DNA of 64,000 nt from Membranipora membranacea (Eukaryota > Bryozoa > Gymnolaemata > Cheilostomatida > Membraniporidae): NCBI GenBank assembly GCA_914767715.1, contig OU612072.1, positions 20,646,001 through 20,710,000 on the forward strand, written 5' to 3'. Positions 1,547 to 39,134 of the stretch are shown in pieces. Numbering within the stretch: position 1 is the first letter of the stretch; every line of letters begins with the position of its first letter. The notes under the pieces are model-generated. The model did no database searches. It was not told the origin of the DNA and saw nothing but the letters and a program-made list of their open reading frames with translations. The position numbers and the translations under genes are program-made.

Positions 1547-1693
1547 AATTGCAAAGATGAACTCGCTGAAGGACCTAAACTTATGCAATAACAATCTAAG
1601 TAGAGATGATCAGCTGAGTCAGACATTGTCAGCACTCACTAATCTGGAGAAACTGGACCTGGGAGACTGTAAGCTGACTAAGATACCTGAAAG
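1547..1693 (+). CDS. LRR exon A1 (two leucine-rich repeats)
   Basis: A 147-bp exon between an acceptor (TTTTCTTTTCTTCAG) and a donor (AAG|GTAATG). It begins with the third base of a codon and ends after the second base of another, so it is frame-neutral. It encodes a 49-residue module starting IAKMNSLKDLNLCNNNLS and ending LDLGDCKLTKIPE, with two LxxLxLxxN/CxL repeats of 23-24 residues. LRRs form a curved solenoid that binds ligands on the beta-strand face. The exon is inferred to belong to the LRR-Roc-COR-caspase gene because phase, strand and repeat type match the Roc exon at 49769. It differs from A2 by six residues, five of them at beta-face positions. Confidence 0.85.
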
Positions 1694-2512
1694 GTAATGA
1701 CACTCATTGGCTGATACCTCAGTATACTTATATTTATCCTACTGTTATCATCATTTAGGTCAAGGTATATGAAAGTTTATCTTTAAAAATCACAAAAACC
1801 CACAAGCAGCATAACAAACATGAATATAAATATTAAATTGATTGGGAGTCGTGTCATCACTTAAAACTGTCAAATGATTTCCCAGGGTCCTCTAATTTTG
1901 AGAACTGGTCATGTGTTTACAATTGCCCATCAAATAAAAATGTTTTCTAAACTTTAGTCAAAGACAGTCATCATATATGCTGAAAGTCATTTAGGTTTAT
2001 TATTTCCCTGTTTTTGTGATGGGTAGTGACTGCTAAAATGCAACAGTTTTTTTGCATTGCTCTGTTGAGGTAGCTATACAACATTTCTGTCTTTGGTTGA
2101 TAAAATGGATTTAACAAGTGTACAGACAGCACCTTAAATGAAGAACATTACTTATTATGACCTTATTTGCCGTGTTGATACATCCTCAAGTCTTGCAAAA
2201 AAAAGAAAACATTACAGCCTTAATTTTTTTGTAAACACCTGTTTTATGTATTTTTGTTGTCGAGACAGCCAAAGCCCCTTATTTGACTATGTATGACGAA
2301 TTACCAAGTTTGGTCCATTTTCCTGCATTCAGAGCTGCTCTCCTATCAGTTCAAACTTAATACAAGAGAATAATGGATCAAACTTGATCTTAGAATACAC
2401 TGCATTTTAGGGAGTTCCTGTGAGGCGAAGAAATCAGAATAACTCTGGGCTATCCGAAAAATAATTGTATAAAACAGGGAATAATGTGAAGATTATATTT
2501 CTTTTTCTGCAG

Positions 2513-2659
2513 CATTGCTAAGATGACATCGCTGAAGGACCTAAACTTATGGGATAACAATCTAAGTAGAGATGATCAGCTGAGTCAGACATTGTCAGCA
2601 CTAACTAATCTGGAGAAACTGGACCTGAGAGGCTGTGAGCTGACCAAGATACCTGAAAG
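2513..2659 (+). CDS. LRR exon A2
   Basis: 147-bp exon with acceptor CTTTTTCTGCAG and donor AAG|GTAATG, in the same phase as A1. The module starts IAKMTSLKDLNLWDNNLS and its second repeat reads LDLRGCELTKIP. Against A1 there are three silent changes and seven base changes altering six residues; C13W, N14D, G39R, D40G and K42E fall on the predicted ligand face. No stop or frame damage. Confidence 0.85.
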
Positions 2660-2814
2660 GTAATGACACCCATCGGCCAAAACCTCAGTTTATTTAGCTT
2701 ATTCATCTTTACCCTTTTGATTTCATCATTCAGGTTAAGGTATATGAGAGGTATATAAGGTTTGCTAAAGGCACTGAAACCCCAATGCAGCAAAAAAGAC
2801 GTATGTCAGAATGT

Positions 2815-2829
2815 TAAGATACCTGAAAG
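2815..2829 (+). pseudogene. Relic tail of an A-type LRR exon with its splice donor
   Basis: The last 15 bases of an A-type exon plus donor and following intron (homology from about 2814 onward, compare 1679 onward) are present without the rest of the exon. No acceptor precedes it. This marks a recombination breakpoint inside an LRR exon and shows that modules are being lost as well as gained. Confidence 0.6.
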
Positions 2830-3539
2830 GTAATGACACTCATTGGCTGATACCTCAGTATACTTATCTTTATCCTACTGATATCATCATTAAGGTCAAG
2901 GTATATGAAAGTTTATCTTAAAAAATCACTAAAACCCACAAGCAGCAAAACAAACATGAATATAAATATTAAATTCATAGGGAGTCTTGTCATCACTTAA
3001 AACTGTCAAATGACTTCTCATGATCCTCTAATTTTGAGAACTAGTCCTGCGTTAAATTGCCCGACAAATAAAAAGTGTTCCTAAATTTTCGTCAAAGACA
3101 GTCATCATATATGCTGAAAATTGTTTAGGTTTTTTCATTTCCCTGTTTTGGTATTGGGTATTGAATGCTAAAATGCAACAGTTTTTTTTGCATTGCTCTG
3201 TTGAGAAACCTATAGTAGCTATACAACATATCTGTCTTTGGTTGATAAAATGGATTTAACAAGTGTACAGACAGCCCTTAAAAGAAGAAAATTACTTATT
3301 ATGACCTATTTTTCCGTGTTGATACATCCTCAAATCTTGCAAAAGAAAAGAAAACATTACAGCCTTAATTTTTTTGTAGACACGTGTTTTATGTATTTTT
3401 GTTGTCGAGACAGCCAAAGCCCCTTATTTGACTATGTGAGACGAATTACCAAGTTTGGTCCATTTTCCTGCATTCAGAGTTGCTCTCCTATGAGTTCAAA
3501 CTTAATACAAGATGAGGTTATTGTCAGCATATTTTATAA

Positions 3540-5205
3540 TATTATGTATATTCTGTGGGCTAACTGTAGATGTTTATGATAGAATCTGACTTCTTTCCTG
3601 ATGATAGTACTGGTTGTTGTGTTAGATAGCTGTAGCCTACATCCATTTGATTGTTCTTTATTGGTTTGTTTTTGAGTACTGTTGAATGGACTGTATCGTA
3701 ATAACGGTGCCTTTAAATCAATCAGGAGGGATTTTAAACATCCCTTGGGTTTAGCATCTAGATATTGTGTGACTGCGCCAAGAATAAGCAGTTTAACATC
3801 CTCTGTATATCGGCTTGGAGATATGGTTAGGATCTTTGATAAACAGACTGAAATGTTTAGGCTGAAGTTTCCCGAGGCATACTAATATATAGAAGAAAGT
3901 GATTTTAGGCACAGCTTTTACTAAATTACACATGATGACGTCGAAACGTCAAATAAAATGGGAGTTGCCCCATCTCTAAACGTAGTTTGACAACTTCCAT
4001 GTTGTGAACGACATGGATTAATGCAATGAAATGAATGTGTCTCAGTGTTGTGGGATTCCGGGTTATTGAGTCACCACATTAACTCTCCGCTACTGAGATC
4101 TGTGCTCACGAGCTCGGTATGATGATTCTCACTCTGTGACACTGACTTATTTACATGCGATCTCTCAGGAGCATGCCTTTTAATTCTTATCAAGTTAAAC
4201 ATCAACGCAATTCAACTTAAACAATGCATGTCTTATTTCTACAAGTCATACTTTCTAGTCAATGATGCCGTGCATTTTGGATTTAATTCATTTAACTCAA
4301 TTAGTTGATGGTATAGATAATCCAACCAAATGTTATACTGTGCCATTATCAAATAATAAGGCAAGTTCTATTTCCCTATAAATATCACTAATGTACAATA
4401 AAAGAAAATATTATGATAAAAACTGTAAAACTTTCATGTTTAAAAACTGACCTGTCTCCAGAATGAAGTTGCAAACAAAGAGCGCTGCTTGACGACCAGA
4501 GGGTCGCCAAACAAAATCATCTTTCCATTGGTGAACCATGCTCTTATATAGCATGGTTCCAGACACATTAAAAAACTGCTGACGTCAATAAGCAAAAAAA
4601 CAAGAAATAAACACAATTTTCAATTACCACAAAAAAAGGGTTGATCGGCCACAAGAGTTGGTTGGTGTAAGTTAGACATCATGCTAATTCTGAATTGTCT
4701 CTGTTGGTGCCACCTTTACTGCATTGTCATGGTTGTCACGGTTCTGGCGTTAGGGTGGCACCGGTATTAAGAATAGATTTTAGATTTGCATATATTTGCC
4801 TGTCCCTGTTTCGAGGTGATATGCACTAGCTGGTAACTGCGTGTCCTCAAGTCGAGGTTGGAGTGTACTGATGATGATGCTGGCTAAGATATTGGATGTT
4901 GTTGTTGTGTCGGATGTTGGTTTAGACAATTCTCCTGTTTGCTGCTGTGTATGCGACATCTGCACTCCCTTAGTTGCAACAGTCCTCGATTGTTATGACA
5001 TGTTATCCGCTCCCTGCTATTGGTGCGACAGTGTTATCCTGTTGAAAAGAAACTATGTCCAATTTAAGTGAGTTGTCAAATTGTGGATATTCGAATATAA
5101 TTGTACTAAATGACATTGAAGTTGCTTCCATCCTCTGAATACCTGATGGTCGCCTGAAACTTGCTGTACTATTTTCAATTGTCGTCAGTAAATCACTATC
5201 TACAA
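3540..5205. other. Intronic stretch: repeat X (about 3540-4060), then sequence with no recognisable gene
   Basis: About 3540-4060 is shared with 24300-24880 and 33970-34370, and parts with 7410-7500 and 26990-27110. It carries the marker GATGACGTCGAAACGTC followed by an A-rich segment. From about 4061 to 5100 I see no repeat family, RNA gene or convincing exon. Short open frames at 3682-3885 and 4780-5071 lack splice context and domain similarity. Confidence 0.5.
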
Positions 5206-6300
5206 TTAATTTGTTTCACTCATTTAGCATAGTCACTGATTACTATAGTTGATTTCCTCTGGTGGATAATAGATATTGTTTTATAATTTTTTCATTAGAT
5301 GCTCCCAAGCTGACCCCAGTCCGTGACTATGATTAAATTTGTACCTAGATTGAGTTTTATGCAGTTTGCCCGTCTTGAGAAGTTTTCCCTTTTCCCTTCA
5401 ATTGATAGCCGGCTACCTCGCTCGATCTCCTACCCAGGAGAGAATCCCAGGTAGAGAGGTTCCAAGGTGAAACAAAATTGACCCTAGCTGATAGTCTTTG
5501 TGTTTGGTGGGGCAAGCAACCCTATGGATTGGTCGGATTTGGGCTCTCTTGCATTTAACTGGAATTTCTGATGTAGAGCGCATCAAATTCAATATGTCAT
5601 TGAGAGGCAAGCAAACATCTTCTTCAGCCTCCACTGAGATCCTTGTCTGGAAGTCTTCAGATGATGTTGACTTCTCAACATCCAACTTATACATGAGATG
5701 GGATTTCTCCCAGATTATGAGGCTCCAAATGCATATCAGACTCCAGTATTTGAACAGATGGTAGAGGCACAACCTGAGATTTTGAGTTTCTGAACTCCTC
5801 TCTGCTATAGCGTATTATTCAATGAGTCATAAACGACAGCGATCTGTGGGCTGGTTGCTACAGTTTATTATAGGTTTGAATACTGTACTCAATGGTTAAA
5901 CTCGCAAACAGACAACAATTGTAAATAGCTGTGTGAGTTCAGCCTGTCACTTCGAGCGCCCACTCAGCTCCAAGGTAGCCCTCCCAAACACAAAGACCAT
6001 TGGTCAGTGTCAATATTATTTCACCTTGACAAGCTTACTGAGGAGGTTATAATAAAATAAATGAGATCCAAATTGACTGAGGTAATAGAGCCATCACAGT
6101 TTGCTTACAAGACGCATATTGGGACAGTCGACGCCTCGATCAAACTGCTTGATGATATCACATCAGAGCTCGACAACCATATGTAAAAGTGGCGCATTGA
6201 ACTTTTCAGAGGACTGCAATCGACTGCAGCCTTCAACATCTTATTATCTTATTCGAATTCAGATTTCACCACTCTCTGTTATGAACAAATTTCAATGTTT
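5206..6300 (+). repeat. Repeat unit U plus RT2 fragment, copy 2
   Basis: Unit U (5211-5900) is here intact and lacks the CR1-like retroelement found at its left border in copies 1, 3 and 7. The uninterrupted border (CTACAATTAATTTGTTTCAC, 5201-5220) is therefore the empty target site for that insertion. From about 5935 to 6180 a plus-strand fragment encodes a degenerate RT segment with FAYKTHIGTVDASIKLLD. The unit leads directly into LRR exon B1. Confidence 0.75.
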
Positions 6301-6316: not shown

Positions 6317-6463
6317 CATTTCAAAGATGGTATCACTGAAGGAGCTGAATGTCAGTGAAAACAATCTGAGTACAGATGATCAGTTGAGTGATACGCTATC
6401 AGGACTTACAAGACTAGAGAACCTGGATATGAGTAGTTGTCATCTGGTCGAGTTACCTTCAGG
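6317..6463 (+). CDS. LRR exon B1
   Basis: 147-bp exon with acceptor GGTACCTTGCAG and donor CAGG|GTATGT, in the same split-codon phase as the A exons. It encodes ISKMVSLKELNVSENNLS, a linker, and LDMSSCHLVELPSG: two LRRs. It is the reference for the B subfamily. B2, B3 and B4 differ from it by 8, 12 and 8 bases respectively, and every one of those changes is amino-acid replacing. The flanking introns are also duplicated around the other B exons. Confidence 0.85.
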
Positions 6464-7711: not shown

Positions 7712-10700
7712 TTTCTTTTTGGTTTCTGCAACAATTTATTGTATTTAAAATCAAAGGACTAAGAAAGTGAAATAAAATAAGGCAGCAGCATGGTCAGATT
7801 AGTCCAGGACTAGTATGGCGACCACCAGATTAGGTGGAAAACAAAGGCTACTGTCCCGAGGGCGAGCCCAGACACGCAGCCTACACAACAAGAAGCGATC
7901 CACACCCCCACAACGAGGACGCCAACCTTCCACACAAAGCAGAAGGAGCTGCCGCCTCCTCCCCCAGTAGGTGTGAATTCCACAGGTTAACACCTGTGGT
8001 TAACAGTGACTTCCCCCTCTACAGTTGGTGGCTCTCTTTGGGGCTAATTTTTCCTACGACCTAGTGGCTGTAACGGCAAGGGCTTGAATTTCTAACTCCC
8101 CATGAAGGCGAGTATTATTGAAATGTAACAGATAGCGGTATTTAAAAAGGGTTTCAATGGGCATAATTTGATACTCAGGGAAGAAAGAGGTCACATGACC
8201 ACGTGGGCGGATTTTGAGTATGACACGGAGAGCTGATTGTTGAAGTTAATAGATGTGATTAAGATGACAATAAGATGACCATAAAACTCAATACCATAAA
8301 TTAAATGTGGATAAAAGAATGTGCAATACAAATTGATCATCGTAGGAATATCGAAATATGGTCATACACTACGCATTAAAAATAGGATGTAGTTCAATTT
8401 CCTACAAACTTCTAAAATATGGGTTTTAAAAATAATGCTCTCATCAAAGTGAATTCCGAAAAATTTGGTGCTATTTTTTGTCTCTAAAGCCTGATTACCA
8501 AGTTGAATTTGGTACTGTTCAGGATCAAAAAAATTTGCTTATATTGGGAGTTAAAAATTACCTGAAATGTTTTTGTATAGTTTATAATCAATTTATTACT
8601 CAAGCACCATTGTTCAATTTTATGAACATTTGATTTTAAAATTTCAGGATCATCGGAAAATGTATTTGTGTCGTCGGCAAAGAGAATATATTTAAATGTT
8701 GGCGCAGATATTACCAAATCATTCATAAATATTAAAAATAAAATTGGACCTAGTAAACATCCCTGAGCAACTCCTTTATCGACCTTTTTCATTGTACTGG
8801 AATAATCGTTGATTTTGACAAATTATTTTCTGTTTTCTAGATAAGATTATTACAAGTCACATGCATCATTTATGAAGGCAATTTTTTGATTAAAATATCA
8901 TGGTTGATGGTATGAAAAGCCTTGCTTAAGTCTAAAAATATTCCTTGTGTAATTTTACTGTTATTAAAATTGTCGTACAGGTGTTCCATTAGTCTAGATA
9001 TAGCAAAAGTTGTGTTCCGTTTTTCACGGAATCCAAACTGGCTGTCAATTAAAATATTAGAATTAGAATAAAAATTAACAATAATAAAATAGAATCGAAG
9101 TTGGATAGCTAATACTTTTTCTGCAACTTTGGATATTGCAGTTAATATCAATATCGGCCAATAGTTGTTACAGTCTAATTTATCACCTTTTTTACGCAGT
9201 GGTCGTACTCTGGCAATTTTCTGGCTATCTGGAAATTCTGATTTTGAACAATAAGATTGATCATGTGGGTCAAAATTGGGTTGATCGCATTTTTATTTTT
9301 TTTAATGATTTTCATGAAAATCCCATCGTACCCAACTGCTATTTTTGCAGAGGAATTATTTATGACACTCTCTGTAATGTCATTTGTAATTTCTAAGAAG
9401 TCAAAACTGTTAATTCTGTCGTATGATAAAGGGTCAGCTCCACATTGAGGTAATTTAGCTGCCAAGCCAGGACCTACACTAGTAAAAAATTTGTTAATAC
9501 ATTCAGCAATTTCAATTTCAGATATGTACCTTTGTCCATTTGTTTCAATACAGCTTGGTGATGAAGATTGTCTGCTTTTCTGTTTAAACGCCGATTTACA
9601 AAAGCCCATTTCTCATTTTGATTCGATTTTACATTTTCAAATTCAGTTTTGTAAAATTCTATTTTTGCATCTATGATGATTTTACATATCAGATTTTTTA
9701 TCTTAGAATATTTTTAAAGAAGTTTACTGTTGAAAGGCTCATCCTCTATTTTTCGGGCAAGTTTTTCTCGCTGTTGAATCAATTTGAAGATTTTGAGCGT
9801 CATCCAAGGCTTTTTAAAAATAAATTTTTTGCTTAGCTTTTTAGTTTTAGTTGTTGATGACCCACCTACTAATTTCTGTAGAGTATTTGTAAAAATTTCA
9901 AAGGTTTCATTTGGATTACTGCTATTGAGCACTCCATGTCATACTTCGGGGTCATTAACTTTCTTGTAAAGTGTGTTTGGATCAAGCTTAGTAATTAAAA
10001 TTTGGTTAGCTTGGTTTTGCTTCCATGTGTTTGGAAAAGCAATGGAGCTAATAACTGGAAAATGGTCAGCTATCATGTCAGTTTTAACAAAATTTCGTTA
10101 CTGGTGTTGTTGACCAGAATATGATCTAAAATGCTGTCTTTCTTGCGGCCGCACCGTGTTGGCGACTCAATAATATTAAAGAAGCCATTCATGCTTATAA
10201 TTCTCATATAGTCTAGGGTAAAGTTATCAGTTTCATTTGAAGGATTTAAGTCAAAATTAAGATCACCAACAACTATAGAGTTCATAGGGAGCGAAGGCAG
10301 CAGCGCCTCCCAGTCAACCAGGAAAGCCGCCGGCCCCACCGAAGGGGTGCGATAGACTGCCAGCACAGAGAAGACTGGGCGGCCAGAGCAAATCATACGA
10401 GCCACCATAGCCTCCGCTCCAGACAACCAAACATCTGTCACACTAGCCTCAAACTCCTCTGATACATACATAGCAATTCCACCGCCAGCGCAATGAAATC
10501 AAGATCTGCAAAACATTTTATAGCCATATAGTGAAAACTTCTCTAAAAATTCTTTTGTGAAAACCAAGTCTCTGAAATGACAATACATGAAAGATGAACA
10601 TTGAGTTGAGCTAGCAGTACTTCAAACAAAGGCATTTTGTTGATTAGACCACGCATATTGATGTGAAAAATTGTAAAGGATCTGGTGCTTAAATTTTTAA

Positions 10701-11894: not shown

Positions 11895-12041
11895 CATTTC
11901 AAAGATGGTATCACTGAAGGAGCTGAATGTCAGTGAAAACAATCCGAGTACAGATTATCAGTTGAGTGATACGCTATCAGGACTTACAAGACTAGAGAAA
12001 CTGAATATGAGTGATTGTTATCTGGGCGAGTTACCTTCAGG
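11895..12041 (+). CDS. LRR exon B2
   Basis: 147-bp frame-neutral exon with acceptor CTTGCAG and donor CAGG|GTATGT. Compared with B1 it carries L17P, D21Y, N35K, D37N, S40D, H42Y and V44G and no silent change. L17P hits a conserved leucine of the first repeat, so this module may be structurally altered; the reading frame and both splice sites are intact. Confidence 0.82.
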
Positions 12042-15611: not shown

Positions 15612-16606
15612 TTCAATGAAATGTTTAATTCAACTCGAACCTTTTAATTAAATTCACAGCAGATAAGTTTAATTCTTTCCGTCTTTCTGGGCCATGGTAG
15701 CTACCTGATGCAGCTACATTCATACCTTTGATAAAAACCCTCTCAGTCACCTGTGATTCAAACATCGATGTATTTAAACTCTACATCAATGTATTTATAA
15801 TCTTTGACATAATAAGCAAAAGCTGACACGTGCTGAGGAAAGAAAATTAATTATCAATGCAAAATCCTATACACAGTTGTGAGTGACTGTTTATGGGATT
15901 TAAGTTGATTATTAAAAATCAATTTTCTTTCCAATGCACATTTTAGCTTCTGCCAAATGCTTCATTATTAATCTAGTAAAGTCAGCAACTAATTTATTAG
16001 CAAGATTAGGTCACTGGTCTTGAAATAAATATATGTTGGTTGTGGCAACTTGAATTTGGTGTTTGTCTGGCTTTCCGCTGTTGATGCTGCTAAATTGGTC
16101 TGCCAGGTACCAGAGCTTTGCATCATGAGCCAGTTGTCAGATGTTACCTAGCCCTATATTTTGGCTGGCTTTGGAGGGAGACTATGTAAAGAAGAGTACG
16201 TGCATAAATGATAGCTAGCCTTATATTTAGCTATTTCAAGCGTATGAAAATGGCAAAATTTTCCGCTAACAGGCTTGTAGTAGTGTGGAAATGGTGTTGT
16301 GTATATGTCTGTGAACATGTTGTGGGTGTGCAACCGTAAAGTAATATTGTAAAAACTATAGCTATGAAAGATCAATTTAGCCAAGTTGGAGCTAACATAT
16401 CTTGTTATTGTTCCAGTGGTTCGGACAGCCCTACGCTATATACAACTTGTTATTAATGTGAAATCCAATTATGCCTACTAAATAACTCGTACCGAAACAA
16501 GAGAAAATTTTTAATTATAATGCTCAGTATCTTACCACAAAAAAGGGCACCAAATTACTGAATGTCAGCAAAAAGTATATTTGTACTTATTTCTCATCTA
16601 TTGCAG

Positions 16607-17025
16607 AATCTCAGCAGAAGTGAAACTATTTGAAGCCTTTCGGAACGACGACCGCGTGTATCTAAAGAATGAGTTACAGGGAAAAGGATACGGCAAACTC
16701 ATGATAGAATCTTTATGCGCAAAAGTAAAAAAAGAGATTAGTGCATACTCACAGGACCCTCTATCTAGTCTGTACAAATCAAAGGCGGACCAGCTAGCTG
16801 ACTTTTCATTAGCAGATTTAGTGACAGAACTCACGCAAAAACTCCCTACTCTGATGGGCACTATACTAAAGCTTATGCAAAAGGAATATAATAGTAAGCC
16901 TGAAATTGTTGCCGTAACAATTGTGGCCAAGATTCTAACAACCCATAACCAAAGGCTATCTGCCTTAAGATATGTGAACGCTCTTGTTCTAGATTTAATA
17001 AGGACAGTTGAGTTAGTAGAGAGTG
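16607..17025 (+). CDS. Exon with a long helical domain inside the transposon
   Basis: 419 bp after acceptor TTCTCATCTATTGCAG, starting one base into a codon, and ending at a consensus donor AGTG|GTAGGT; if unspliced it stops at TAG 17031-17033. It encodes ISAEVKLFEAFRNDDRVYLK, then a region containing LVTELTQKLPTLMGTILKLM and a segment ending RLSALRYVNALVLDLIR. This pattern resembles the conserved N-terminal region of large, lineage-expanded transposon-type proteins of cnidarians and sponges. That is an impression from memory, not a search result. No partner exon fits in the 290 bp left before the right terminal repeat, so the gene looks truncated. Confidence 0.55.
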
Positions 17026-17312
17026 GTAGGTAGGGTTTGTGAACACTTATTATACTAGTTTGATATTTGTTGGATAAGAGAAGCATGCACCTTTCCAGCT
17101 GAGAGTAGGCATAGAACAGACAGTAGGACAGTTGTAGAATCGAGTAAGCTACAGGTAGTTTGTTCCAACTTAAAACAGACACTGAGCTAAGAGTTATTTC
17201 TATCTCTGAGAGAGCAAGAATTGTACTGATATTTACAAAAGCAAATGCATTGTGGGAGATTATCAAAACCCAAGTTGTGTTCTCTTGCTTGTTTTATTCA
17301 TGGGCGGTGGGA

Positions 17313-20962: not shown

Positions 20963-21420
20963 TTCCCAGCCCAGATAGAGTAGTCGTACTCGTTACCTTC
21001 ACCCTCAGATAGAGTCGTCGTACTCGTTACCTTCCCCCTCAGATAGAGTCGTCGTACTCGTTACCTTCCCCCTCAGATAGAGTCGTCGTACTCGTTACCT
21101 TCCCCCTCAGATAGAGTCGTCGTACTCGTTACCTTCCCCCTCAGATAGAGTCGTCATACTCGTTACCCCTCCTCAGATAGAGTCGTCGTACTCGTTACCT
21201 TCCCCCTCAGATAGAGTCGTTGTACTCGTTACCTTCACCATCAGATAGAGTCGTCGTACTCGTTACCTTCCACCTCAGATAGAGTCGTTGTACTCGTTAC
21301 CTTCACCATCAGATAGAGTCGTCGTACTCGTTACCTTCCCCCTCAGATAGAGTCGTCGTACTCGATATATTTCCAGGCAGATACAATCGGCGTACTCGTT
21401 TTAGAGAGTCGGCGTACTCA
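20963..21420. repeat. 34-bp minisatellite, about 13 copies
   Basis: Unit begins CAGATAGAGTCGTCGTACTC and continues with GTTACCTTCCCCCT. Variants have TTG or TCA in place of TCG and CACCAT in place of CCCCCT. The last copies degrade (GATACAATCGGCGTACTC). It ends directly before a TATAAATAGG. Confidence 0.9.
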
Positions 21421-27790: not shown

Positions 27791-27937
27791 CATTTCAAAG
27801 ATGGTATCACTGAGGGAGCTGTATGTCAGTTACAACTATCTGAGTACAGAAGATCAGATGAGTGATACGCTATCAGGACTTACAAGACTAGAGAAACTGG
27901 ATATGCGTCATTGTGATCTGGTCGAGTTACCTTCAGG
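27791..27937 (+). CDS. LRR exon B3
   Basis: 147-bp frame-neutral exon with acceptor GGTACCTTGCAG and donor CAGG|GTATGT. Relative to B1: K8R, N11Y, E14Y, N16Y, D20E, L23M, N35K, S39R, S40H and H42D, twelve base changes, none silent. Three aromatic residues (Y11, Y14, Y16) are added on one face of the first repeat, a marked change of surface chemistry. Confidence 0.85.
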
Positions 27938-29814
27938 GTATGTTCAGTTTGTTTGTTTGATTATGCTATTGAAATAACACATCAAAAACTATATCGCATG
28001 TATGTATGTATGTGTTTTGATTTTAAAATTTTTGGAATTGTGCTCACCCACAAGTGAGAAGTGTCAGAATCAATCCGAAAGGTAAACACTGGCTACCACA
28101 ATGTAATGCAATCTGGATGCCTTTCAGTTCTCAATGGAAATGGTTTTCAAGAACCATCTCACATCAATCTCTGTTACATTTTATTAGGAATCAATCTCAA
28201 TTTGGCAAACTCAATGTTTAGCCCACTGTAAGGAAAATGGTTACATCACTTCCAGAGATTGATGGAATGTGTTGAAATTTTAATAACTACACTACCTTCA
28301 AAACATTCATAGCATTTGAAAATGCCGAAAACCGGCGCCATAATGTGGAGTCGATATACTAGATATCAGAGTGTTTACCATCATAAAGGTAAATTTATCC
28401 CCAATGAGTAGGGCAGCTGCCATTCAGTTTTGTAATATCATAACTGGCTGGCAGTAGAATTGCTGATAATAAATTAATGAAAATTGCCTCCGTTCAGAAG
28501 CTTCACTATAGTATCGTCCAGCAAAGTTAAATTACAAATAATAAATTACAACCCCATCAAAAAGTTGTAAATGTTGTCAGGCTCAGGCGATACTAATATG
28601 AGTATCTTCGGGATGATATATTCCTGTTTTGTAATTCACTGAAACAAAGCTGCATTAAACATATAATTATGGTTGTGCTGTTTGCCTTGCTACTGGAATC
28701 CAAAGTGAGCGCCTTTGACCTAAGTCATTGATGGAATTGAACTCAAGAACTGTAGAAATATTGTCCATTGTCATACAGTTTGTCCATACAATTCCGACCT
28801 ATATCAATATGGATCTATGATATTTTGCCCGCATAAGGAATCAAAAACTTAGTATCAATGTAAATGTTGTATACAAGATGTCTGCGAAGCAAGAATATCG
28901 CAATTTGTGGTGGAAGTTGATAACATGAGATGATAACTCAACATGTATCCGGCATGGTATTTTGTGGAAGATTATCAGCCCTAACTCCATTGTGTGTACG
29001 GACGAACTTCAAAACTCAATGCTGTGTATTGACATTACTTTTGCCAGAGTTAAATGAAGCCTATTTCATGGGAAAATTATGCTATTCACGCAGTAAAACC
29101 TGGCTGTATTGTCTTTAGCTATCAACAATGTTTAATATTGAGATTTTTTTTTATTTTGACACAATGAACTCAAATTTTGGCTGTCTGACTGTATTCTTGC
29201 CAGTAATTAATTGTTGTAGCTGTAATTATAGGAATTAATTATATACTTAGATCCATTGCCTATGATAATTATTGTGCATAAACATGGAATAGGCTCCACT
29301 ACAACTACTTTAGGTTTTCAGGTATTATCAACTGTTACGCTGCAAATGCCCACACCACTAAACAAATTATAATCACTCAACCAAGGACAAAACTGAATTT
29401 TGGCAATAGTACTTGAGAGCCTTTATGAAAATCAAAAACGGTATGGCTACTATATCACTGGCTGTGAATAGGATTGATTTCATCAAACTGCTGCAGGATA
29501 GTGATTGCATATTTGAGAGCTGACTCTGAATGTAAATTTGGCAGTCCTCATTACTGATCAGGCCTGCCATAGTTTGTTATCGGCAACTTTTTTGACTTCA
29601 GCTTAATACCTATCAAGTGGCAAGGTTGTTGGGAGGTAGTGAACGGTCATACACATTTATGAATTTTAGGAAGGCACATTGGTCATCATAATCAGTTTAG
29701 ATTTTTCCTGAGCAACAACTATCCAAACCTGTACTTTGCCCAGTGAATATGAGAATACAGGTTTTAGTTATGTGCTTTCTTTATTTGTGTTTCTACAATT
29801 CTGTGAACATTACG
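27938..29814 (+). repeat. Duplicated intron blocks between LRR exon B3 and the giant minisatellite
   Basis: 27938-28610 is the B-type intron. 28620-29820 is a second block shared with 40050-42440, and in part with 18340-18600 and 26080-26400. Short open frames here (28930-29118; minus strand 29373-29570) recur in the other copy with changes and have no domain. I see no exon. Confidence 0.65.
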
Positions 29815-32800
29815 AATAAAAAACAGGTATGCTAATAAAACAGGTAGGCTAATAAAACAGGTAGGGTAATAAAACAGTTAGGCTAATAAAACAGGTAGAG
29901 TAATAAAACAGATAGGCTAATAAAACAGGTAGGGTAATAAAACAGGTAGGGTAATAAAACAGGTAGGCTAATAAAACAGGTAGGCTAATAAGACAGATAG
30001 GCTAATAAGACAGATAGGCTAATAAAACAGGTAGGCTAATAAAACAGGTAGGCTAATAAACAGGTAGGCTAATAAGACAGATAGGCTAATAAGACAGATA
30101 GGCTAATAAAACAGGTAGGCTAATAAAACAGGTAGGATAATAAAACAAGTAGGCTAATAAAACAAGTAGGCTAATAAAACAAGTAAGGTAATAAAACAGG
30201 TAGGCTTATACAACAGGTAGGCTTATACAACAGGTAGGCTAATAAAACAGATAGGGTAATAAAACAGGTAGGATAATAAAACAGGTAGGGTAATAAAACA
30301 GGTACGCTAATAAGACAGATAGGCTTATAAAACGGGTAGGCTAATAAAACAGGTAGGCTAATAAAACAGGTAGGCTAATAAAACAAGTAAGGTAATAAAA
30401 CAGGTAGGCTAATAAAACAAGTAAGGTAATAAAACAGGTAGGCTTATACAACAGGTAGGCTTATACAACAGGTAGGCTAATAAAACAGATAGGGTAATAA
30501 AACAGGTAGGATAATAAAACAGGTAGGGTAATAAAACAGGTACGCTAATAAGACAGATAGGCTAATAAAACAGGTAGGCTAATAAAACAGGTAGGCTAAT
30601 AAAACAGGTAGGCTAATAAAACAAGTAAGGTAATAAAACAGGTAGGCTAATAAAACAGATAGGGTAATAAAACAGGTAGGGTAATAAAACAGGTAGGCTA
30701 ATAAAACAGGTAGGCTAATAAAACAGGTAGGCTAATAAAACAGGTAGGCTAATAAAACAAGTAGGCTAATAAAACAAGTAGGCTAATAAAACAGGTAGGC
30801 TAATAAAACAGGTAGGCTAATAAAACAGATAGGGTAATAAAACAGGTAGGGTAATAAAACAGGTAGGATAATAAAACAGGTAGGCTAATAAAACAGGTAG
30901 GCTAATAAAACAGGTAGGCTAATAAAACAGGTAGGCTAATAAAACAAGTAGGCTAATAAAACAAGTAGGCTAATAAAACAGGTAGGCTAATAAAACAGGT
31001 AGGCTAATAAAACAGATAGGGTAATAAAACAGGTAGGCTAATAAGACAGATAGGCTAATAAGACAGATAGGCTAATAAAACAGGTAGGCTAATAAAACAG
31101 GTAGGCTAATAAAACAGGTAGGCTAATAAAACAGGTAGGCTAATAAGACAGATAGGCTAATAAGACAGATAGGCTAATAAAACAGGTAGGCTAATAAAAC
31201 AGGTAGGCTAATAAAACAGGTAGGCTAATAAAACAGGTAGGCTAATAAAACAGGTAGGGTAATAAAACAGATATGCTAATAAAACAGGTAGGCTAATAAA
31301 ACAGGTAGGCTAATAAAACAGATAGGGTAATAAAACAGATAGGCTAATAAAACAGGTAGGGTAATAAAACAGGTAGGCTAATAAAACAGGTAGGGTAATA
31401 CAACAGGTAGGCTAATAAGACAGATAGGCTAATAAAACAGGTAGGCTAATAAAACAGGTAGGCTAATAAGACAGATAGGCTAATAAAACAGGTAGGCTAA
31501 TAAAACAGGTAGGGTAATAAAACAGGTAGGCTAATAAAACAGGTAGGCTAATAAGACAGATAGGCTAATAAAACAGGTAGGCTAATAAAACAGGTAGGGT
31601 AATAAAACAGGTAGGCTAATAAAACAGATAGGCTAATAAAACAGGTAGGCTAATAAAACAGGTAGGGTAATAAAACAGGTAGGCTAATAAGACAGATAGG
31701 CTAATAAAACAGGTAGGCTAATAAAACAGGTAGGGTAATAAAACAGGTAGGCTAATAAAACAGATAGGCTAATAAAACAGGTAGGCTAATAAAACAGGTA
31801 GGGTAATAAAACAGGTAGGCTAATAAAACAGGTAGGCTAATAAGACAGATAGGCTAATAAGACAGATAGGCTAATAAAACAGGTAGGCTAATAAAACAGG
31901 TAGGCTAATAAAACAGGTAGGGTAATAAAACAGGTAGGCTAATAAAACAGATAGGCTAATAAAACAGGTAGGCTAATAAGACAGATAGGCTAATAAAACA
32001 GATAGGCTAATAAAACAGGTAGGGTAATAAAACAGGTAGGCTAATAAAACAGATAGGCTAATAAAACAGGTAGGCTAATAAAACAGGTAGGCTAATAAAA
32101 CAGGTAGGCTAATAAGACAGATAGGCTAATAAAACAGGTAGGCTAATAAAACAGGTAGGCTAATAAAACAGGTAGGGTAATAAAACATGTAGGCTAATAA
32201 GACAGATAGGCTAATAAAACAGGTAGGCTAATAAGACAGATAGGCTAATAAAACAGGTAGGCTAATTAAACAGGTAGGGTAATAAAACAGGTAGGCTAAT
32301 AAAACAGGTAGGGTAATAAAACATGTAGGCTAATAAGACAGATAGGCTAATAAAACAGGTAGGCTAATAAGACAGATAGGCTAATAAAACAGGTAGGCTA
32401 ATAAAACAGGTAGGGTAATAAAACAGGTAGGCTAATAAAACAGGTAGGGTAATAAAACAGGTAGGCTAATAAAACAGGTAGGCTAATAAGACAGATAGGC
32501 TAATAAGACAGATAGGCTAATAAGACAGATAGGCTAATAAAACAGGTAGGCTAATAAAACAGGTAGGGTAATAAAACAGGTAGGCTAATAAAACAGGTAG
32601 GCTAATAAAACAGGTAGGCTAATAAAACAGGTAGGCTAATAAAACAGGTAGGCTAATAAGACAGATAGGCTAATAAGACAGATAGGCTAATAAAACAGGT
32701 AGGCTAATAAAACAGGTAGGCTAATAAAACAGGTGGGGTAATAAAACAGGTAGGCTAATAAAACAGATAGGCTAATAAAACAGGTAGGCTAATAAGACAG

Positions 32801-32988
32801 ATAGGCTAATAAGACAGATAGGCTAATAAAACAGGTAGGCTAATAAAACAGGTAGGCTAATAAAACAGGTAGGCTAATAAAACAGGTAGGCTAATAAGAC
32901 AGATAGGCTAATAAGACAGATAGGCTAATAAAACAGGTAGGCTAGTAAAACAGGTAGGCTAATACAACAGGTAGGCTAATAAAACTGG
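29815..32988. repeat. Giant 17-bp minisatellite, about 186 copies (3.2 kb)
   Basis: Consensus AATAAAACAGGTAGGCT, with common variants AATAAGACAGATAGGCT, GGGT for GGCT, and AATACAACAGG. A block of about 140 bp with a rare variant order is present at 30181 and again at 30419, exactly 14 units apart, which shows higher-order duplication. On the host-gene strand the consensus unit contains a polyadenylation hexamer (AATAAA) and a splice-donor-like CAG|GTAGG. It lies in the intron before LRR exon A3. It is not coding: 17 is not a multiple of 3 and TAA/TAG recur. Confidence 0.95.
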
Positions 32989-33276
32989 TTTTTGTATGAA
33001 CACCTGTTTTATGTATTTTTGTTGTCGAGACAGCCAAAGCCCCTTATTTAACTCTGTAAGACGAAGTACCAAGTTTGGTCCATCTTCTTGCATTCAGAGT
33101 TGCTCTCCTATGAGTTCAAACTTAATACAAGAGAATAATGAATCAAACTTGATCTTAGAATACACTGCATTTTAGGGAGTTCCTGTGAGGCGAGAGATCA
33201 GAGTAGCTCTGGGCTATCCGAATAATAATTGTATAAAGCTGGGAATAATGTGAAGATTGTATTTCTTTTTTTGCAG

Positions 33277-33423
33277 CATTGCTAAGATGACATTGTTGAA
33301 GGAGCTGATGTTATACCGTAACAATCTAAGTAGAGATGATCAGCTGAGTCAGACATTGTCAGCACTCACTAATCTGGAGAATCTGAACCTGAGCTGGTGT
33401 CATCTGACTAAGATACCTGACAG
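33277..33423 (+). CDS. LRR exon A3
   Basis: 147-bp frame-neutral exon, acceptor TTTCTTTTTTTGCAG, donor CAG|GTAATG. The module starts IAKMTLLKELMLYRNNLS and its second repeat reads LNLSWCHLTKIPD. It is the only A-type exon away from the 1.2-3.5 kb array, sitting between two B-type units. Against A2 about 16 base changes replace residues and four are silent; residues 15-34 are unchanged in all three A exons. Confidence 0.85.
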
Positions 33424-34547
33424 GTAATGACACCAATTGGCCTAAACCTCAGTATGTTCATCTTCATCCTACTGTTGTCATAACCCAGGTCAATGTATGT
33501 ATGTCTATCTTGATTATGGCACTAAAACCACATGCTGCAAGAAAAAATGTGTATCAGATTGTTTAATTGATTGGGAGTGGTCTCATCACTTAAAATTGTC
33601 AAAAGATTTCCAGGGTTCTCTACTTTAGTGAACTAATCATGCGTTTAATCGCTTGCCAAACATAAATTGTTTCTAAACTTGGATCGAAAACAGTCATCAT
33701 AAACGCAGAGGAATATTTAGGTCTTTGTTGTACCTGTTTTATTGTTGGGTAGTGAGCGCTAATATTCAACAGTTTTTTTGCATTGCTCTGTTGAGAAACC
33801 GAAAAGCAAATACATTACTTATTTGACTTTGTTTGTCGTGTTGTTACATCATACCAAATTTTAAGAAAATCAAATCATTACCGCCTTAATTTTTTTTCGT
33901 AAACCACTGTTTCTTGTATTTTTGTTGTCGAAACAGCCAAAGCTAAGATAACTCCAAGATGAGGGTATTGTCAGCATATTTTATAATATTATGTATATTG
34001 TGTGATATACTGCTAAGCCCACCTGCGGGATAACTGTAGATGTTATGAATCTGACTTCTTTCCTGATGATATTACTGGTTGTTTGCGTTGTGTTAGATAG
34101 CTGTAGCCTACATCCACTTGATTGGTCTTTATAAGTTTGTTTTTGAGCACTGTTGAGGATATCGTAATAATGGTGCTTTAAAGTCAATCGGGAGGGATTT
34201 TAAACATCCCTTGGGTTTAGCATCTAGATATTGTGTTACTGCGCCAAGAGTAAACAGTTGAACATCCTCTGTATATCGACTTTGGAGATATGGTTAGGAT
34301 CTTTGATAAACAGACTGAAATGTTCAGGCAGAAGTATCCTGAGCAATGAAATGATTTTTTTATGAGTCTCCGTGTCATCCTGATGAAAAGAAACTAGGGC
34401 CAATGTAAAATATTTATCAAATTGTTGATATTTGATCATAATTGTACTAAATGACTGCTGCTGGTTGCTGCCATCCTCTTAATACCTGATGGTCGCCTGA
34501 AAATTGCTTTTCTGTTTTCAATTGTCCGTAGTAAATCACTATTTACA
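33424..34547 (+). repeat. Intron after exon A3 with repeat X
   Basis: 33424-33700 follows the A-type intron. 33700-34550 is repeat X (compare 24020-24450 and 3540-4060), ending at the border where retroelement copy D is inserted. No exon seen. Confidence 0.6.
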
Positions 34548-36842
34548 ATTTTTGTTTTTTTTGTTTCTGCAACAATTTTTTGTATTCAAAATCAAAGGAC
34601 TAAAATAGTGTAATAAAATAAGGCAGCGGCATGGTCAGATTAGTCCTGGACTAGTATGGCGACCATCCGATTAGCCGGAAAACAAAGGCTACTGTCCCCA
34701 GGGCGAGCCCAGACACGCAGCCTACACGACAAGAAGCGATCCACACCCCCACAGCGAGGACGCCAACCTCCCACGCAAAGCAGAAGGAGCCGCCCCCCTC
34801 CTCCCCCAGTAGGTGTGAATTTCACAGGTTTATACCTGTGGTTAACAGTGACCTCTCCCTTCTACAGATGTTGGCTCTCTTTGGGGCTAATTTTTCCTTC
34901 GACCTAGTGGCTGTAATGGCAGGGGCTTGAATTTCTAACTCCCCATGAAGGTTAGTATTATTAAAATGTAACAAATAGCGGTGTTTCAATGGGCATAATT
35001 TGATACTCGGAGAAGAAAGAGGTCACATGACCACGTGGGCGGATTTTGAGTATGACACGGAGATCTGACTTTTGAAGTAAATAGATGTCATTAAGATTAC
35101 AATTTGCGGCATGACCATGAAACTCAATACCATAGATTAAATGTGGAAAAAAGAATGTGCAACACAAATTGATCATCGTAGGAATATTGAAATATGGTCG
35201 TACACTACGCATTAAAAATAGGACGTAGTTCAATTTCCGACAAACTTCTAAAATATGGGTTTTAAAAATAATGCTCTCATCCAGGTGAATGCCGAGAAAT
35301 TTGTCTCTAAAGCCTGATTACCAATTTAATTTGGTACTGTTCGGGGTCTAAAATTTGCTTATTTTGGAATTTAAAAATTACCTGAATTGTTTTTGTATAG
35401 TTTAAAATCAATATATTACTCAAGCATCATTGTTCAATTTTTTGAACATTTGATTTTAAAATTTCAGGATCATTGGAAAATATATTTTGTGTCGTCGGCA
35501 AAGAGAATATATTTAAACATTGGCGCAGATATTACCAAAACATTGATTAATATTAAAAATAAAATTGGACCTAATACACATCCCTGAGGAACTCCTATAT
35601 CGACCTTTTTCATTGTACTGGAATGATCGTTGAATTTGACAAATTATTTTCTGTTTTCTAAATAAAATTTCAACAAGTCACATGCATCATTTGTAGAATT
35701 ATAAAAAGGCAATTTTTTGATTAACATATCATGGTTGATGGTATCAAAAGCCTTGCTGAAGTCTAAAAATATTCCTTGTGTAATTTTACTGTTATTGAAA
35801 CTGTCGTACAGGTGTTCCATTAGTCTAGATAAAGCAGAAGTTGTGTTCCGTTTTTCACGGAATCCAAACTGGTTGTCAATTAAAATATTAGAATTTTCCA
35901 ATTAGAATCGAAGTTGGATAGCTAAAACTTTTTCTGCAGCTTTGGATATTGCAGTTGATATCAATATCGGCCGATAGTTGATACAGTCAAATTTATCACC
36001 TTTTTTATGCAGTGGTCGTTCTCTGGCAATTTTCTGGCTATCTGGAAATTCTGATGATGGAACAATAATATTGATCATGTGGGTCAAGATTGGGATGATA
36101 GCATTTTTATTTTCTTTAATGGTTTTCATGGAAATCCCATCGTACCCAACTGCTATTTTTGCAGAGGAATTATTTATGACAGTCTCTGTAATGTCGTTTG
36201 TAATTTCTAAGAAGTCAAAATTGTTAATTCTGTCGTATTAGGTATGATAACGGGTCAGCTCCACATTCAGGTCATTTAGCTGCCAAGCCAGGACCTACAC
36301 TCGTAAAAAATTTGTTAAAACATTCAGCAATTTCAATTTCAGATGTGTACCTTTGTCCATTTGTTTCAATACAACTTGGTGATGAAGACTTGTCTGCTTT
36401 TCTGTTTAAAAGCCCATCTCTCATTTTGATTCGATTTTACATTTTCAAATTCAGTTTTGTAAAAATGTCAGATTACATGTCAAATTTTTTATCTTAAAAT
36501 ATTTTTGATGAAGTTTACTGTTGAAAGGCTCTCTTAAATTTTTGGGCAAGTTTTCTCGCTGTTGAATCAATTTGACGATTTTGAGCGTCATCCAAGGCTT
36601 TTTAAAAGTGAATTTTTTGCTTAGCTTTTTAGGTTTAGTTATGAATGACTCAGCTACGAATTTCTGTAGAGTATTTTTAAAAATTTCAAAGGCGTCATTT
36701 GGATTACTGCTATTGAGCACTCCCTGTCATACTTCAGGGTCATTAACTTTTTTGTAAAGTGTGTTTGGATCAAGCTTAGTAATTAAAATTTGGTTAGCTT
36801 GGTTTGGCTTCCATGTGTTTGGAGAAGCAATGGAGCTAATAA

Positions 36843-37118
36843 AGCCTTGTACCCACCAATGTGCTTTTTTAATCTCAGGAATTTCTAAGATTTTGCACTG
36901 GCAATCATTAAAGAATTTGTGGGTACCACAAAATGCAGCACAACATATCGCACAACATATCGCACGAAAGTAGAATCAATTCTATTTTCGTACGAAGGTA
37001 TTTGTAAACGCACGATCTCTGTGTATTTTGTACCCACCAATCACAGCAATGCACAAGTGGTCGTGCATGATCGCAGATGAGTTACTGGGACAGTTATGCA
37101 GTTGATGGGTACCAGGCC
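36843..37118. mobile_element. 276-bp MITE with TAA target duplication, PIF/Harbinger-like
   Basis: Ends are inverted repeats: AGCCTTGTACCCACCAA on the left and GGCCTGGTACCCATCAA (reverse complement of the right end). TAA flanks both sides (36840-36842, 37119-37121). Copy B preserves the empty site with a single TAA at about 10031-10033. A 3-bp TWA-type duplication is typical of PIF/Harbinger elements. The centre holds a hairpin of about 15 bp (CGCACGAAAGTAGAA, TCAA loop, near 36960-36993). Confidence 0.85.
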
Positions 37119-37121
37119 TAA

Positions 37122-37860
37122 CTGTAAAATGGTCAGCTATCATGTCAGTCTTAACTGTACATGACAAAATTTCATTACTGGTGTTGATGACCAGAATATG
37201 ATCTAAAATTCTGTCTTTCGTGCGGCCGCTCCGTGTTGGCGACTCAATAATATCAAAGAAGCCATTCATGCTCATAATTCTCATATAGTCTAGGGTAAAG
37301 TTTTCAGTTTCATTTGAAAGATTTACGTCAAAATTTAGATCACCAACAACTATAGAGTTGATAGAGAGCGAAGGCAGCAGCGCCTCCCAGTCCACCAGGA
37401 TTTTCGCCGGCCCCACCGAAGGGGTGCGATAGACTGCCAGCACAGAGCAGACTGGGCGGCCAGAACAAATCATACGAACCACCATAGCCTCCGCTCCAGA
37501 CAACCGAACATCCGTCACACTAGCCTCAAACTCCTCTGATACATACATAGCAATTCCACCGCCAGCGCCATGGAATCGAGATCTGCAAAACATTTTATAG
37601 CCATATAGTGAAAAGTTCTCTAAAAATTCCTTTTGTGAAAACCAAGTCTCTGAAATGACAATACATGAAAAATGAACATTGAGTTGAGCTAGCAGTACTT
37701 CAAACAAAGGCATTTTGTTGATTAGACTACGCATATTGATGTGTAAAATTGTAAAGGATCTGGTGCTAAAATTGTTAAAAACGGTATTCGCAGATCCTTG
37801 GCTAAGATTTTGAACATCGTTAAAAAAGTCAATGATTTGGTGATCCGTTGGCTTAGCCAT
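37122..37860 (-). pseudogene. AP-type endonuclease domain of retrotransposon copy D (open for about 246 codons)
   Basis: Starts MAKPTDHQIIDFF. Endonuclease motifs in order: ILHINMRSLINKM (about residues 38-50), VISETWF (about 67-73), GGGIAMYVSEEFE, VVGDLNFDVN (metal/catalytic), ILDHILV, and ADHFTV near the end. In this family the enzyme nicks target DNA to prime reverse transcription. The frame is open, but at 37121 it runs into the inserted MITE and the RT part that should follow is cut off and frameshifted. Confidence 0.8.
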
Positions 37861-37885
37861 CCTGTTTTGGTGTTGTTACTTGGTG

Positions 37886-38900
37886 CTAATTTGTTTCACT
37901 CATTTAGCATAGTCACTGATTACTTAAGTTGATTTCCTCTGGTAGATAATTTATCATGCGTTATGACTTTTTCATTGGATGCTCCCAAACTTACCCCAGT
38001 CCATGACTATGATTTAATTTGTACCTAGATTGAGTTTTATGCAGTTTGCTGTCTTGAGAAGTTTTGCCTTTTCCCTTCACTTGATAGCTCGCCCGATCTC
38101 CTACCCAGGAGAGAATCCCAGGTAGAGAGGTTACAAGGTGAAACTATATTGACACTAACTGATAGTCTTTGTGTTTGGTGGGGCAAGCAATCCTATGGAT
38201 TGGTCGGATTTGGGCTCTCTTGCATTTAACTGGGATTTCCGATGTAGATTGCATCAAATTTAATATGTTATTGAGAGGCAAGCAAACATCTTCTTCACCC
38301 TCCACTGAGATCCATGTCTGGAAGTCTTCAGATGATGTTGACTTCTCAACATCCAACTTACACATGAGATGGGATTTTTCCGAGATTATGAGGCTCCAAA
38401 TGCATATCAGAATCAATTATTTGAACAGATGGTAGAGGCAACGTCCTGAGATTTTGAGTTTCTAAACTCCTCTCTGCTATAGCGTATTAATCAACGAGTC
38501 ATAAACGACAGCGATCTGTGGGCTGGTTGCTACAGTCCAGTAAAGGGTTAAATACTGTACTCAATGGTTAAACTGGCAAACAGACAACAATTGTAGATAG
38601 CTGTGTGAGTTCAGCCTGTCACTCCGAGCGCCCACTCAGCTCCAAGGTAGCCCTCCCACACACAAAGACCATTGGTCAGTGTCAATATTGTCACCTTGAC
38701 AAGCTTACTGAGGAGGTTATAATAAAATAAATGAGATCCAAATTGACAGAGGTAATAGAGCCATCACAGTTTGCTTACAAGACGCACATTGGGACAGTCG
38801 ACGCCTCGATCAAACTGCTTGATGATTTCACATCAGAGCTTGACAACCATAATGCAAAAGTGGCGCATTGAACTTTTCAGAGGCATGCAATCGACTGCAA
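37886..38900 (+). repeat. Repeat unit U plus RT2 fragment, copy 7
   Basis: Same order as at 5211-6300. It carries 19-20 bp less near 38090 than copy 2. It ends in the RT2 fragment (about 38600-38880) immediately before LRR exon B4. Confidence 0.7.
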
Positions 38901-38987
38901 CCTTCATCATCTTATTATCAATGTCGAATTCAGATTTCACCACTCTCTGTTATGAACAAATTTCAATGTTTTGTTGGTACCTTGCAG

Positions 38988-39134
38988 CATTTCAAAGATG
39001 GTATCACTGAAGGAGCTGAATGTCAGGAAAAACGATCTGAGTACAGATGATCAGTTGAGTGATACGCTATCAGGACTTACAAGACTAGAGAAACTGGATT
39101 TGAGTGATTGTCTTCTGGTCGAGTTACCTTCAGG
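38988..39134 (+). CDS. LRR exon B4
   Basis: 147-bp frame-neutral exon, acceptor GGTACCTTGCAG, donor CAGG|GTATGT. Relative to B1: S13R, E14K, N16D, N35K, M38L, S40D and H42L, eight base changes and none silent. It is the last LRR module seen before the Roc exon 10.6 kb downstream. Confidence 0.85.

Follow-up and report, generated by a model that had tools for sequence, protein, structure and literature searches.

The window analysed here, a 64,000-nucleotide stretch of the genome of the bryozoan Membranipora membranacea (GenBank assembly GCA_914767715.1, contig OU612072.1, referred to below as C8, positions 20,646,001–20,710,000), carries one gene of a cluster that extends over about 3 Mb, in a genome of 339 Mb assembled in 18 contigs. 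The predicted gene joins seven leucine-rich repeat (LRR) exons to exons for a ROC GTPase, a COR domain and a caspase domain, and the LRR exons, together with many related copies elsewhere in the cluster, show a strong excess of amino acid replacements on one face of the predicted repeats. We consider it likely that the gene belongs to a multigene family of intracellular LRR-ROC-COR-caspase receptors in which the LRR sensor is under diversifying selection while recombination shuffles the exon copies.

The Predicted LRR-ROC-COR-Caspase Gene

All seven LRR exons lie on the forward strand, are 147 nt long with AG and GT at their borders, encode two LRRs each and are in phase 2 at both ends. They fall into two subfamilies, A (A1, 1547–1693, with 48 full codons; A2, 2513–2659; A3, 33277–33423) and B (B1, 6317–6463; B2, 11895–12041; B3, 27791–27937; B4, 38988–39134). 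Further downstream, a large exon (49769–51645, forward strand), assigned on the basis of its splice site, Pfam, AlphaFold and Foldseek, encodes the last LRRs, the ROC GTPase and COR and, since it is entered in phase 2, any LRR exon could be spliced onto it in frame. It is followed on the same strand by a predicted linker exon (51850–52013), the phase of which fits the ROC-COR donor and which is conserved beside L010 and weakly beside L020 and L022, and by two caspase exons. The first of these (52171–52317) encodes the N-terminal part of the C14 domain and gives no Pfam match when alone, and the second (52896–53151) contains the His position, in GHG, and the Cys position, in DCCSG. The predicted splice model, consisting of the seven LRR exons and these four further exons, comprises 1157 codons with no stop, and it places the N-terminal LRRs in frame in the same predicted gene as ROC-COR.

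ROC was identified in the large exon by Pfam (29.6 bits against a cut-off of 27) and COR by its fold, since the Pfam matches to COR-A (18.1 bits) and COR-B (16 bits) following ROC were both under the cut-off. The AlphaFold model of this 625-residue exon, built with 23 sequences, has a pLDDT of 80.4 and a pTM of 0.79, and its best Foldseek matches were LRRK1 (674 columns), LRRK2 (686) and the LRR-Roc-COR protein of C. tepidum (655), with TM scores by query of 0.52–0.63 and identities of 13–17%. By eye, we read the sequences GRKEVGKS, DFGG and THKD as what we take to be the P-loop and further motifs of ROC. No Pfam match to NACHT or NB-ARC was found on the large exon, for which Roc and other GTPase/ATPase models were listed instead, and searches with Rfam at gathering cut-offs, and of viral contigs with the ROC-COR exon, yielded no match. 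For the two caspase exons joined, Peptidase_C14 (Pfam cut-off 21.4) scored 42.5 bits, compared with 29.4 for the open frame 52821–53177. The catalytic His and Cys positions align with those of caspase-8 and caspase-1 at a weak E-value of about 0.03, and the joined peptide gave no PDB match at 0.001; the predicted C14 domain carries both residues and was traced as far as position 53151.

The common phase would also permit LRR exons to be skipped or joined freely, such that mutually exclusive or combinatorial splicing could generate many isoforms per gene, as for Dscam or for the brown-algal ROCO genes in which alternative splicing has been reported (PMC11378527). Several human gene families, however, are also described as having modular LRR exons (PMC6642158), and phase symmetry alone therefore says little; splicing of this kind, although compatible with selection on the receptors, appears rather doubtful.

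Replacements on the Predicted Concave Face

In the AlphaFold model of the ROC-COR exon, strands in the exon's own LRRs include residues 9–11 and 32–34, which correspond to the xLx of LxxLxL. Codons 9–11 of the LRR exons were matched to the first strand through the common start I-x-x-M-x-x-L, and codons 35–37 through the motif. The model of a lone 48-residue LRR exon was poor (pLDDT 67.8), and the strand register of the LRR exons consequently rests on the model of the adjoining exon together with general knowledge of LRRs. As the face we used the ten xxLxLxx codons 8, 9, 11, 13, 14, 34, 35, 37, 39 and 40, which we take, following the general LRR literature, to define the concave side.

The initial annotation had reported that B1 differs from B2, B3 and B4 by 8, 12 and 8 bases, with none of the differences silent, and a recount gave the same figures. 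The total of 28 is correct as a raw count; the differences are not independent, and when each change is counted once there are at least 23 changes over 16 codons. Freedom from silent change applies to the four B exons of the window and not to the A exons, which carry silent differences at codons 2, 7, 10, 30 and 44. Residues 15–34 are indeed identical in A1, A2 and A3, and the A exons show 27 changes in full codons, each counted once. The clustering on the concave face also holds for both subfamilies: codons variable in amino acid constitute 8 of the 10 face codons and 8 of the 38 others in B (Fisher, p = 0.001), and 8 of 10 and 4 of 38, respectively, in A (p = 5e-5).

Neutral simulations using intron branch lengths produced on average 3.8 face changes in B and 3.1 in A, against the 12 and 15 observed, which were reached in none of the 2000 runs for either subfamily. 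Among the window copies, exon divergence tends to exceed that of the introns: the B exons diverge by 5.4–9.5%, compared with 2.6–6.7% for near flanks and 5.6–7.3% for longer flanks, and the A exons by 7.5–15.6%, compared with 6.0–8.2% for the upstream intron; the downstream flank of A aligned poorly and was left out of this comparison. A joint model, with HKY for flanks, a codon model for exons and shared branch lengths, gave for A and B together a face replacement rate 5.3 times that of introns (twice the log-likelihood difference, 40.6) and 0.93 for the remaining codons. For B, the factor was 5.6 with near flanks and 5.8 when B2 was removed. Adding codons 16 and 42 to the face yielded 5.8 for A and B together and 0.52 for the rest, and a control set of codons on the convex side gave a rate of 0.70. 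The deficit of silent changes was significant in B (p = 0.0017), and not in A (p = 0.46) nor in both jointly (p = 0.2). Most of the small-sample doubt left by these window tests is removed by the larger exon set considered next, which also makes chance in a few exons an unlikely cause.

Diversification across the Exon Copies

The larger set comprises 85 matches at 83 distinct places, L001 and L005 having been dropped because they lie at the places of B1 and B4. AG and GT are 147 nt apart in 81 of the 83 copies; 80 copies have both an open frame and intact splice sites, and the three with stops were left out. The amino acid entropy peaks at codons 9, 11, 13, 14, 35, 37, 39, 40 and 42, where as many as 12 residues occur at one site, and codon 16, together with codons 24 and 48 in A, reaches 1.0–1.3 bits. 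Codons 8 and 34, both assigned to the face, show little or no variation. A single residue occurs at 14 of the 48 codons in A and at 17 of 48 in B, and there are 75 distinct face combinations among the 80 exons, in which D, N, S, H, G, Y and R are frequent.

Trees were constructed for 37 of 42 A exons and 33 of 38 B exons, after exact duplicates and copies with short flanks had been dropped. On these trees the nonsynonymous rate at the ten face codons was 6.3–9.9 times the flanking-intron rate in A and 8.0–10.2 times in B, so that a comparison of replacement rate with flanking-intron divergence over many copies, which had been suggested as a check, placed the face well above the introns. Silent rates relative to the flank were 0.18–0.63 for the A face, 1.67–2.24 for the B face and 0.87–1.48 for the rest. 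The synonymous face rate was not significantly above the flank in either subfamily; one fit put the silent rate of the A face below the flank (p = 0.023) and one put that of the A rest above it (p = 0.004). Single-site tests were positive for codons 9, 11, 13, 14, 24, 35, 37, 39, 40 and 42 in A and for codons 14 and 40 in B, and significantly constrained sites were 1, 2, 10, 12 and 30 in A and 28 and 32 in B.

Tree-free estimates are consistent with these results. Nonsynonymous divergence on the face was 0.374 in A and 0.319 in B, compared with 0.065 and 0.039 for the rest and 0.087 and 0.050 for the flanks, such that the face exceeds the flank four- to six-fold. Silent divergence over the whole exon amounted to 0.102 in A and 0.051 in B, close to the respective flanks. 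The initial annotation had regarded silent divergence comparable to that of introns as evidence against diversification, and such comparability was found, but the expectation was mis-specified because equality is the neutral baseline which the face replacements exceed. Evolution free of silent change was rejected as a general rule, silent change being at about the intron level in the larger set.

Recent Copies

Very recent duplications provide an additional view of the process. Seven exon pairs show zero difference over 203–238 near-flank bases, and four of them differ by 3, 4, 5 and 12 exon bases. An inverted copy of 6.4 kb (20.643–20.649 versus 22.304–22.311 Mb) carries 38 differences in 6403 aligned bases, distributed as 11 of 735 bases in five exons versus 27 of 5668 outside them (Fisher, p = 0.0027). 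The first 750 bases, which include exon L078 with its changes in codons 42 and 45, contain 28 of the 38 differences. In the interior of the block, 7 of 588 exon bases differ, compared with 3 of about 5,065 others (p = 1.2e-5, with the cut chosen after seeing the data). These seven differences lie in A1 and A2 and are all replacements, at codons 35, 37, 40 and 42 and at codons 13 and 14, respectively; the inverted copy of A2, L068 at 22.304 Mb on C8, differs from it only at codons 13–14. For the tandem pair L064/L058 the values are 12 of 147 exon bases versus 9 of 1879 others (p = 2.3e-9), and nine of these exon differences fall in codons 35, 37, 39, 40 and 42. The pair A3/L096 shows 5 of 147 versus 16 of 2285 outside a satellite (p = 0.007, the satellite-free part having been cut after the differences were seen). 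These base-level tests overstate the excess because changes cluster, possibly as single events.

A further explanation would be that each exon was specialised once for its place in one long solenoid rather than for changing ligands, as might be expected of seven exons, all in phase 2/2, that are usable together in one gene. Two other exons of the inverted block are identical, in agreement with this. Near-identical exons at equivalent places of the block, A1/L093 and A2/L068, differ nevertheless on the face, from which it follows that face change continued after the position of the exon was fixed, and we regard a single specialisation as improbable.

The same pairs are relevant to the possibility that an exon-focused mechanism, either short gene-conversion tracts or local mutagenesis, drives the diversification, with selection mostly keeping the scaffold. 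The four pairs that differ within their exons despite identical near flanks favour such a mechanism, as do clusters of adjacent bases (nt 39–41 in A2/L068 and nt 125–127 in L078 and its inverted partner) and the exact match of L068 to L076 and L077 over the first 70 nt, a tract spanning all three A2/L068 sites. Moreover, distances for the first and second LRR faces within an exon are nearly uncorrelated (r = 0.067 and 0.071), and tree-free silent divergence in B was 0.113 on the face (95% interval 0.073–0.153) versus 0.042 elsewhere (0.027–0.057). On the other side, the silent rate of the face shows no rise in A and, on trees, no significant rise in B, and complete donors for A1/L093 or A3/L096 were not found among the sampled exons, a sample that is incomplete. 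In addition, the interior of the inverted block contains, as events, only two clusters, both within exons. An exon-focused drive thus remains a tentative, minority explanation. The suggestion that diversifying selection acts on the concave face gained support from the 80 exons and from some very recent copies; targeted mutation, offered with it as an alternative, was not demonstrated. Mutation aimed at face codons is not needed and, as a sole cause, it is disfavoured in A and still conceivable in B.

Weighing Selection against Drift

Several of the observations count against selection on a receptor surface or weaken it. In the window-only tests, removing B3 lowered the B face rate to 2.6 times that of introns (p = 0.048), and a face set displaced by +3 or +5 codons captured more B changes (15 and 14, respectively, versus 12), in part owing to the variation at codons 16 and 42. 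The 26 replacements and one silent change at the face codons of the window give P = 0.031 only, against 18% silent expected. B2 carries several off-face changes (L17P, D21Y and V44G) and B3 two (D20E and L23M), and in the larger set codon 24 in A is off the face yet positive, while codon 48 in A is variable. Off-face replacement on the trees was 0.72–0.92 of the flank rate, a mild constraint only. In the B copies, distances for the upstream flank show no correlation with those for the downstream flank (r = 0.019), so that one tree is a poor model and the p-values from single trees are indicative only. Three of the seven pairs with identical near flanks have identical exons, which also tells against an exon-focused mechanism, and when the satellite is included A3/L096 shows no exon excess (5 of 147 versus 174 of 4285). 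Furthermore, the window gene has DCCSG in place of QACXG, several relatives carrying SHG and QACSG or QSCSG, and its own caspase activity is uncertain for this reason. An immune role of the family is putative.

Some of these findings might also be expected if the copies were relaxed or dying exons under drift, namely the weak off-face constraint and the proline of B2 at a scaffold leucine, to which can be added the three copies with a stop (L040, L101 and L102), two of which have also lost the donor site. Against this, nearly all copies are open and properly bordered, and a large minority of codons are invariant in amino acid. Drift alone cannot explain face replacements that exceed the intron rate several-fold. 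Pseudogene drift was accordingly rejected, as in the initial annotation, on the basis of the above-neutral face rates and the 80 intact copies, and we consider it scarcely credible.

Gene Family and Genomic Context

Exon and ROC-COR counts are lower bounds, as only the best 40 of 161 candidates for the B block, 40 of 329 for the A block and 70 of 267 for ROC-COR were scored. The scored matches, at least 41 to the B block and 48 to the A block, all fall within the interval 19.89–22.87 Mb of C8, and their exon units have been multiplied by tandem and segmental duplication inside the 3-Mb cluster. The ROC-COR exon has at least 83 matches over ten contigs, some representing two parts of one exon, and none with internal stops. 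Among those scored, the closest is 96% identical and lies at 22.53 Mb; the ROC-COR exon of this sister gene differs at 12 silent and 24 replacement codons out of 625. Within 1.5 kb of 30 fetched ROC-COR exons, caspase exon 1 was found at 20 and caspase exon 2 at 17.

Layouts were examined on C8, after omitting two 55-base rows of the 48 for A and, where a ROC-COR row was split, its second half. Most A and B exons are located 5' of a ROC-COR exon on a common strand, and A(n)B(m) is the prevailing order. The window gene has the layout AAAAABBBAB, and others have ABBBBBBBBB, AAAAAAB, AAAAA and AABBBABB. For ten A or B matches, the 350 kb downstream contain no scored ROC-COR match. Upstream of the array lies L112 (28 bits), a stretch that resembles an LRR exon but is more diverged and has no Pfam match. 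The orphan exons L053, L054, L101 and L102 (C8, 20.74–20.75 and 21.32–21.33 Mb) have no scored ROC-COR exon nearby; L053 and L054 are two places with one B protein sequence, L101 and L102 are A exons broken at a common point, and the group might represent decaying or reservoir copies. Other ROC-COR groups on C3, C5 and C9 are about 28–41% identical to the window exon in full-length or N-terminal matches, and they may hold further diversified LRR arrays.

The introns of the window carry several repeats. A satellite with a 17-bp period extends from about 29668 to 33100 within the intron 5' of A3 and differs by about 8% between the window and L110, where the adjoining intron differs by less than 1%, perhaps owing to a shifted register. 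Long interspersed nuclear element (LINE)-like fragments occur in introns at 8484–10498 and 34961–37875 on the reverse strand, these two being copies of each other, and at 59202–60116 on the forward strand; an endonuclease match covers 36985–37875 and a reverse transcriptase match 59202–60113, the other LINE-like parts having been recognised by eye. A stretch at about 6109–6210, with equivalents 5' of B2 to B4, reads by eye like a reverse transcriptase fragment, lies 100–200 bp upstream of the B exons and looks more conserved among copies than the longer flanks. The window also contains a 170-residue open frame (16521–17033, forward strand) with a sub-threshold acetyltransferase match (17.4 bits against a cut-off of 27) and a short tandem array (20972–21400) with self-matches offset by 68 bp, and it is depleted in CpG (0.46).

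Comparison with Known Systems

In the NLRs of animals and plants, diversifying selection acts on the strand face of an LRR sensor, and the expected output is cell death. The window gene differs from them in that the switch is ROC-COR rather than NACHT or NB-ARC and the caspase lies within the same predicted protein. In lamprey variable lymphocyte receptors (VLRs), variable residues also occupy the concave LRR face, but there an incomplete germline gene is completed by cassette insertion, whereas the germline model of the window gene is already continuous, with its 5' and caspase ends partly traced; the likeness to VLRs is only an analogy.

The nearest known parallel is provided by brown-algal LRR-ROCO genes, for which shuffled LRR exons were reportedly described by Zambounis et al. 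2012, a study cited by Teng et al. 2024. Teng et al. (PMC11378527) described shuffled 72-bp LRR exons in phase 2 that show positive selection at four sites of the concave face and are alternatively spliced. Common to both families are LRR exons of uniform length in phase 2, a ROC-COR unit, shuffled copies, positive selection at concave sites and a proposed role as immune receptors. The bryozoan family lacks the arrangement of one 72-bp exon per LRR, having a 147-bp exon per two LRRs, and it is followed by a caspase and resides in an animal host. Since exon make-up, caspase and, probably, host kingdom differ, the window family appears to represent a known principle in a new form.

Among other animals, the excerpts available list a ROCO with TIR in Aplysia (PMC9334734) and, in a figure legend, CARD and TIR with placozoan ROCO (PMC4104024). 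ROC-COR is joined to immunity or death domains there as well, and those excerpts describe neither ROC-COR with caspase nor diversification of LRR exons. Amphioxus has LRRs-caspase hybrid genes in which LRRs are joined directly to caspase, a proposed link from recognition to apoptosis (PMC2575513); Roc does not appear in the main text of that paper, nor is exon diversification described in the excerpts considered. Ciliate LRR exons resemble those of the window in their uniform phase 2, their multiplication and evidence of ectopic recombination, and differ in their length of 90 bp and their host, ROC-COR and caspase not being described in the portion of that work considered. The prior work considered also includes PMC8195603 and PMC6564038. 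Among the titles and abstracts listed by literature searches, none described LRR-ROC-COR-caspase genes or exon-level diversifying selection in animal ROCO; this is no proof of absence, and up to forty ROCO domain combinations are mentioned for animals (PMC11378527).

Possible Mechanism and Significance

The excess replacements, at codons 9, 11, 13, 14, 35, 37, 39 and 40 and also at 16 and 42, lie on the predicted LRR strands or immediately past their ends, and this position, with the domain context, suggests that the variable surface serves in recognition. Selection is the simplest cause, since replacements exceed the intron rate while silent change stays near it. It is probable that copies also exchange sequence, given that the flanks on the two sides of B copies are uncorrelated and the two LRR faces of an exon nearly uncorrelated, the histories of adjacent stretches thus being scrambled, and that L068 shares 70 nt with L076 and L077.

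Positive selection for new binding specificities, in pathogen or non-self recognition, would fix face changes, which exchange of exon copies by gene conversion or unequal crossing-over would spread and recombine. Ligand binding might then act on the ROC-COR GTPase as a switch and draw the attached caspases into proximity, and the clustered caspases could trigger cell death or an immune signal, an activation that domain knowledge makes plausible. It is conceivable, if doubtful, that short exchanges between copies of these paired-LRR exons keep replacing ligand-face codons while introns hardly change. Recombination would then have generated a recognition repertoire in an animal, with sensor diversity, GTPase switch and death protease combined in a single gene family, and in a bolder form the exchange may occur in somatic cells too.

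The family provides a close animal parallel to the natural experiment suggested for brown algae, in which receptors would diversify exon by repeat-coding exon, and here the near-identical introns can serve as an internal clock. Because at least 83 exons can be read, selection alone and exon-focused exchange become directly testable against each other. If the predicted gene is correct, LRR sensor, ROC-COR switch and caspase would connect recognition with cell death within one protein, and their union would bear on what the ROCO switches of the LRRK type evolved for.

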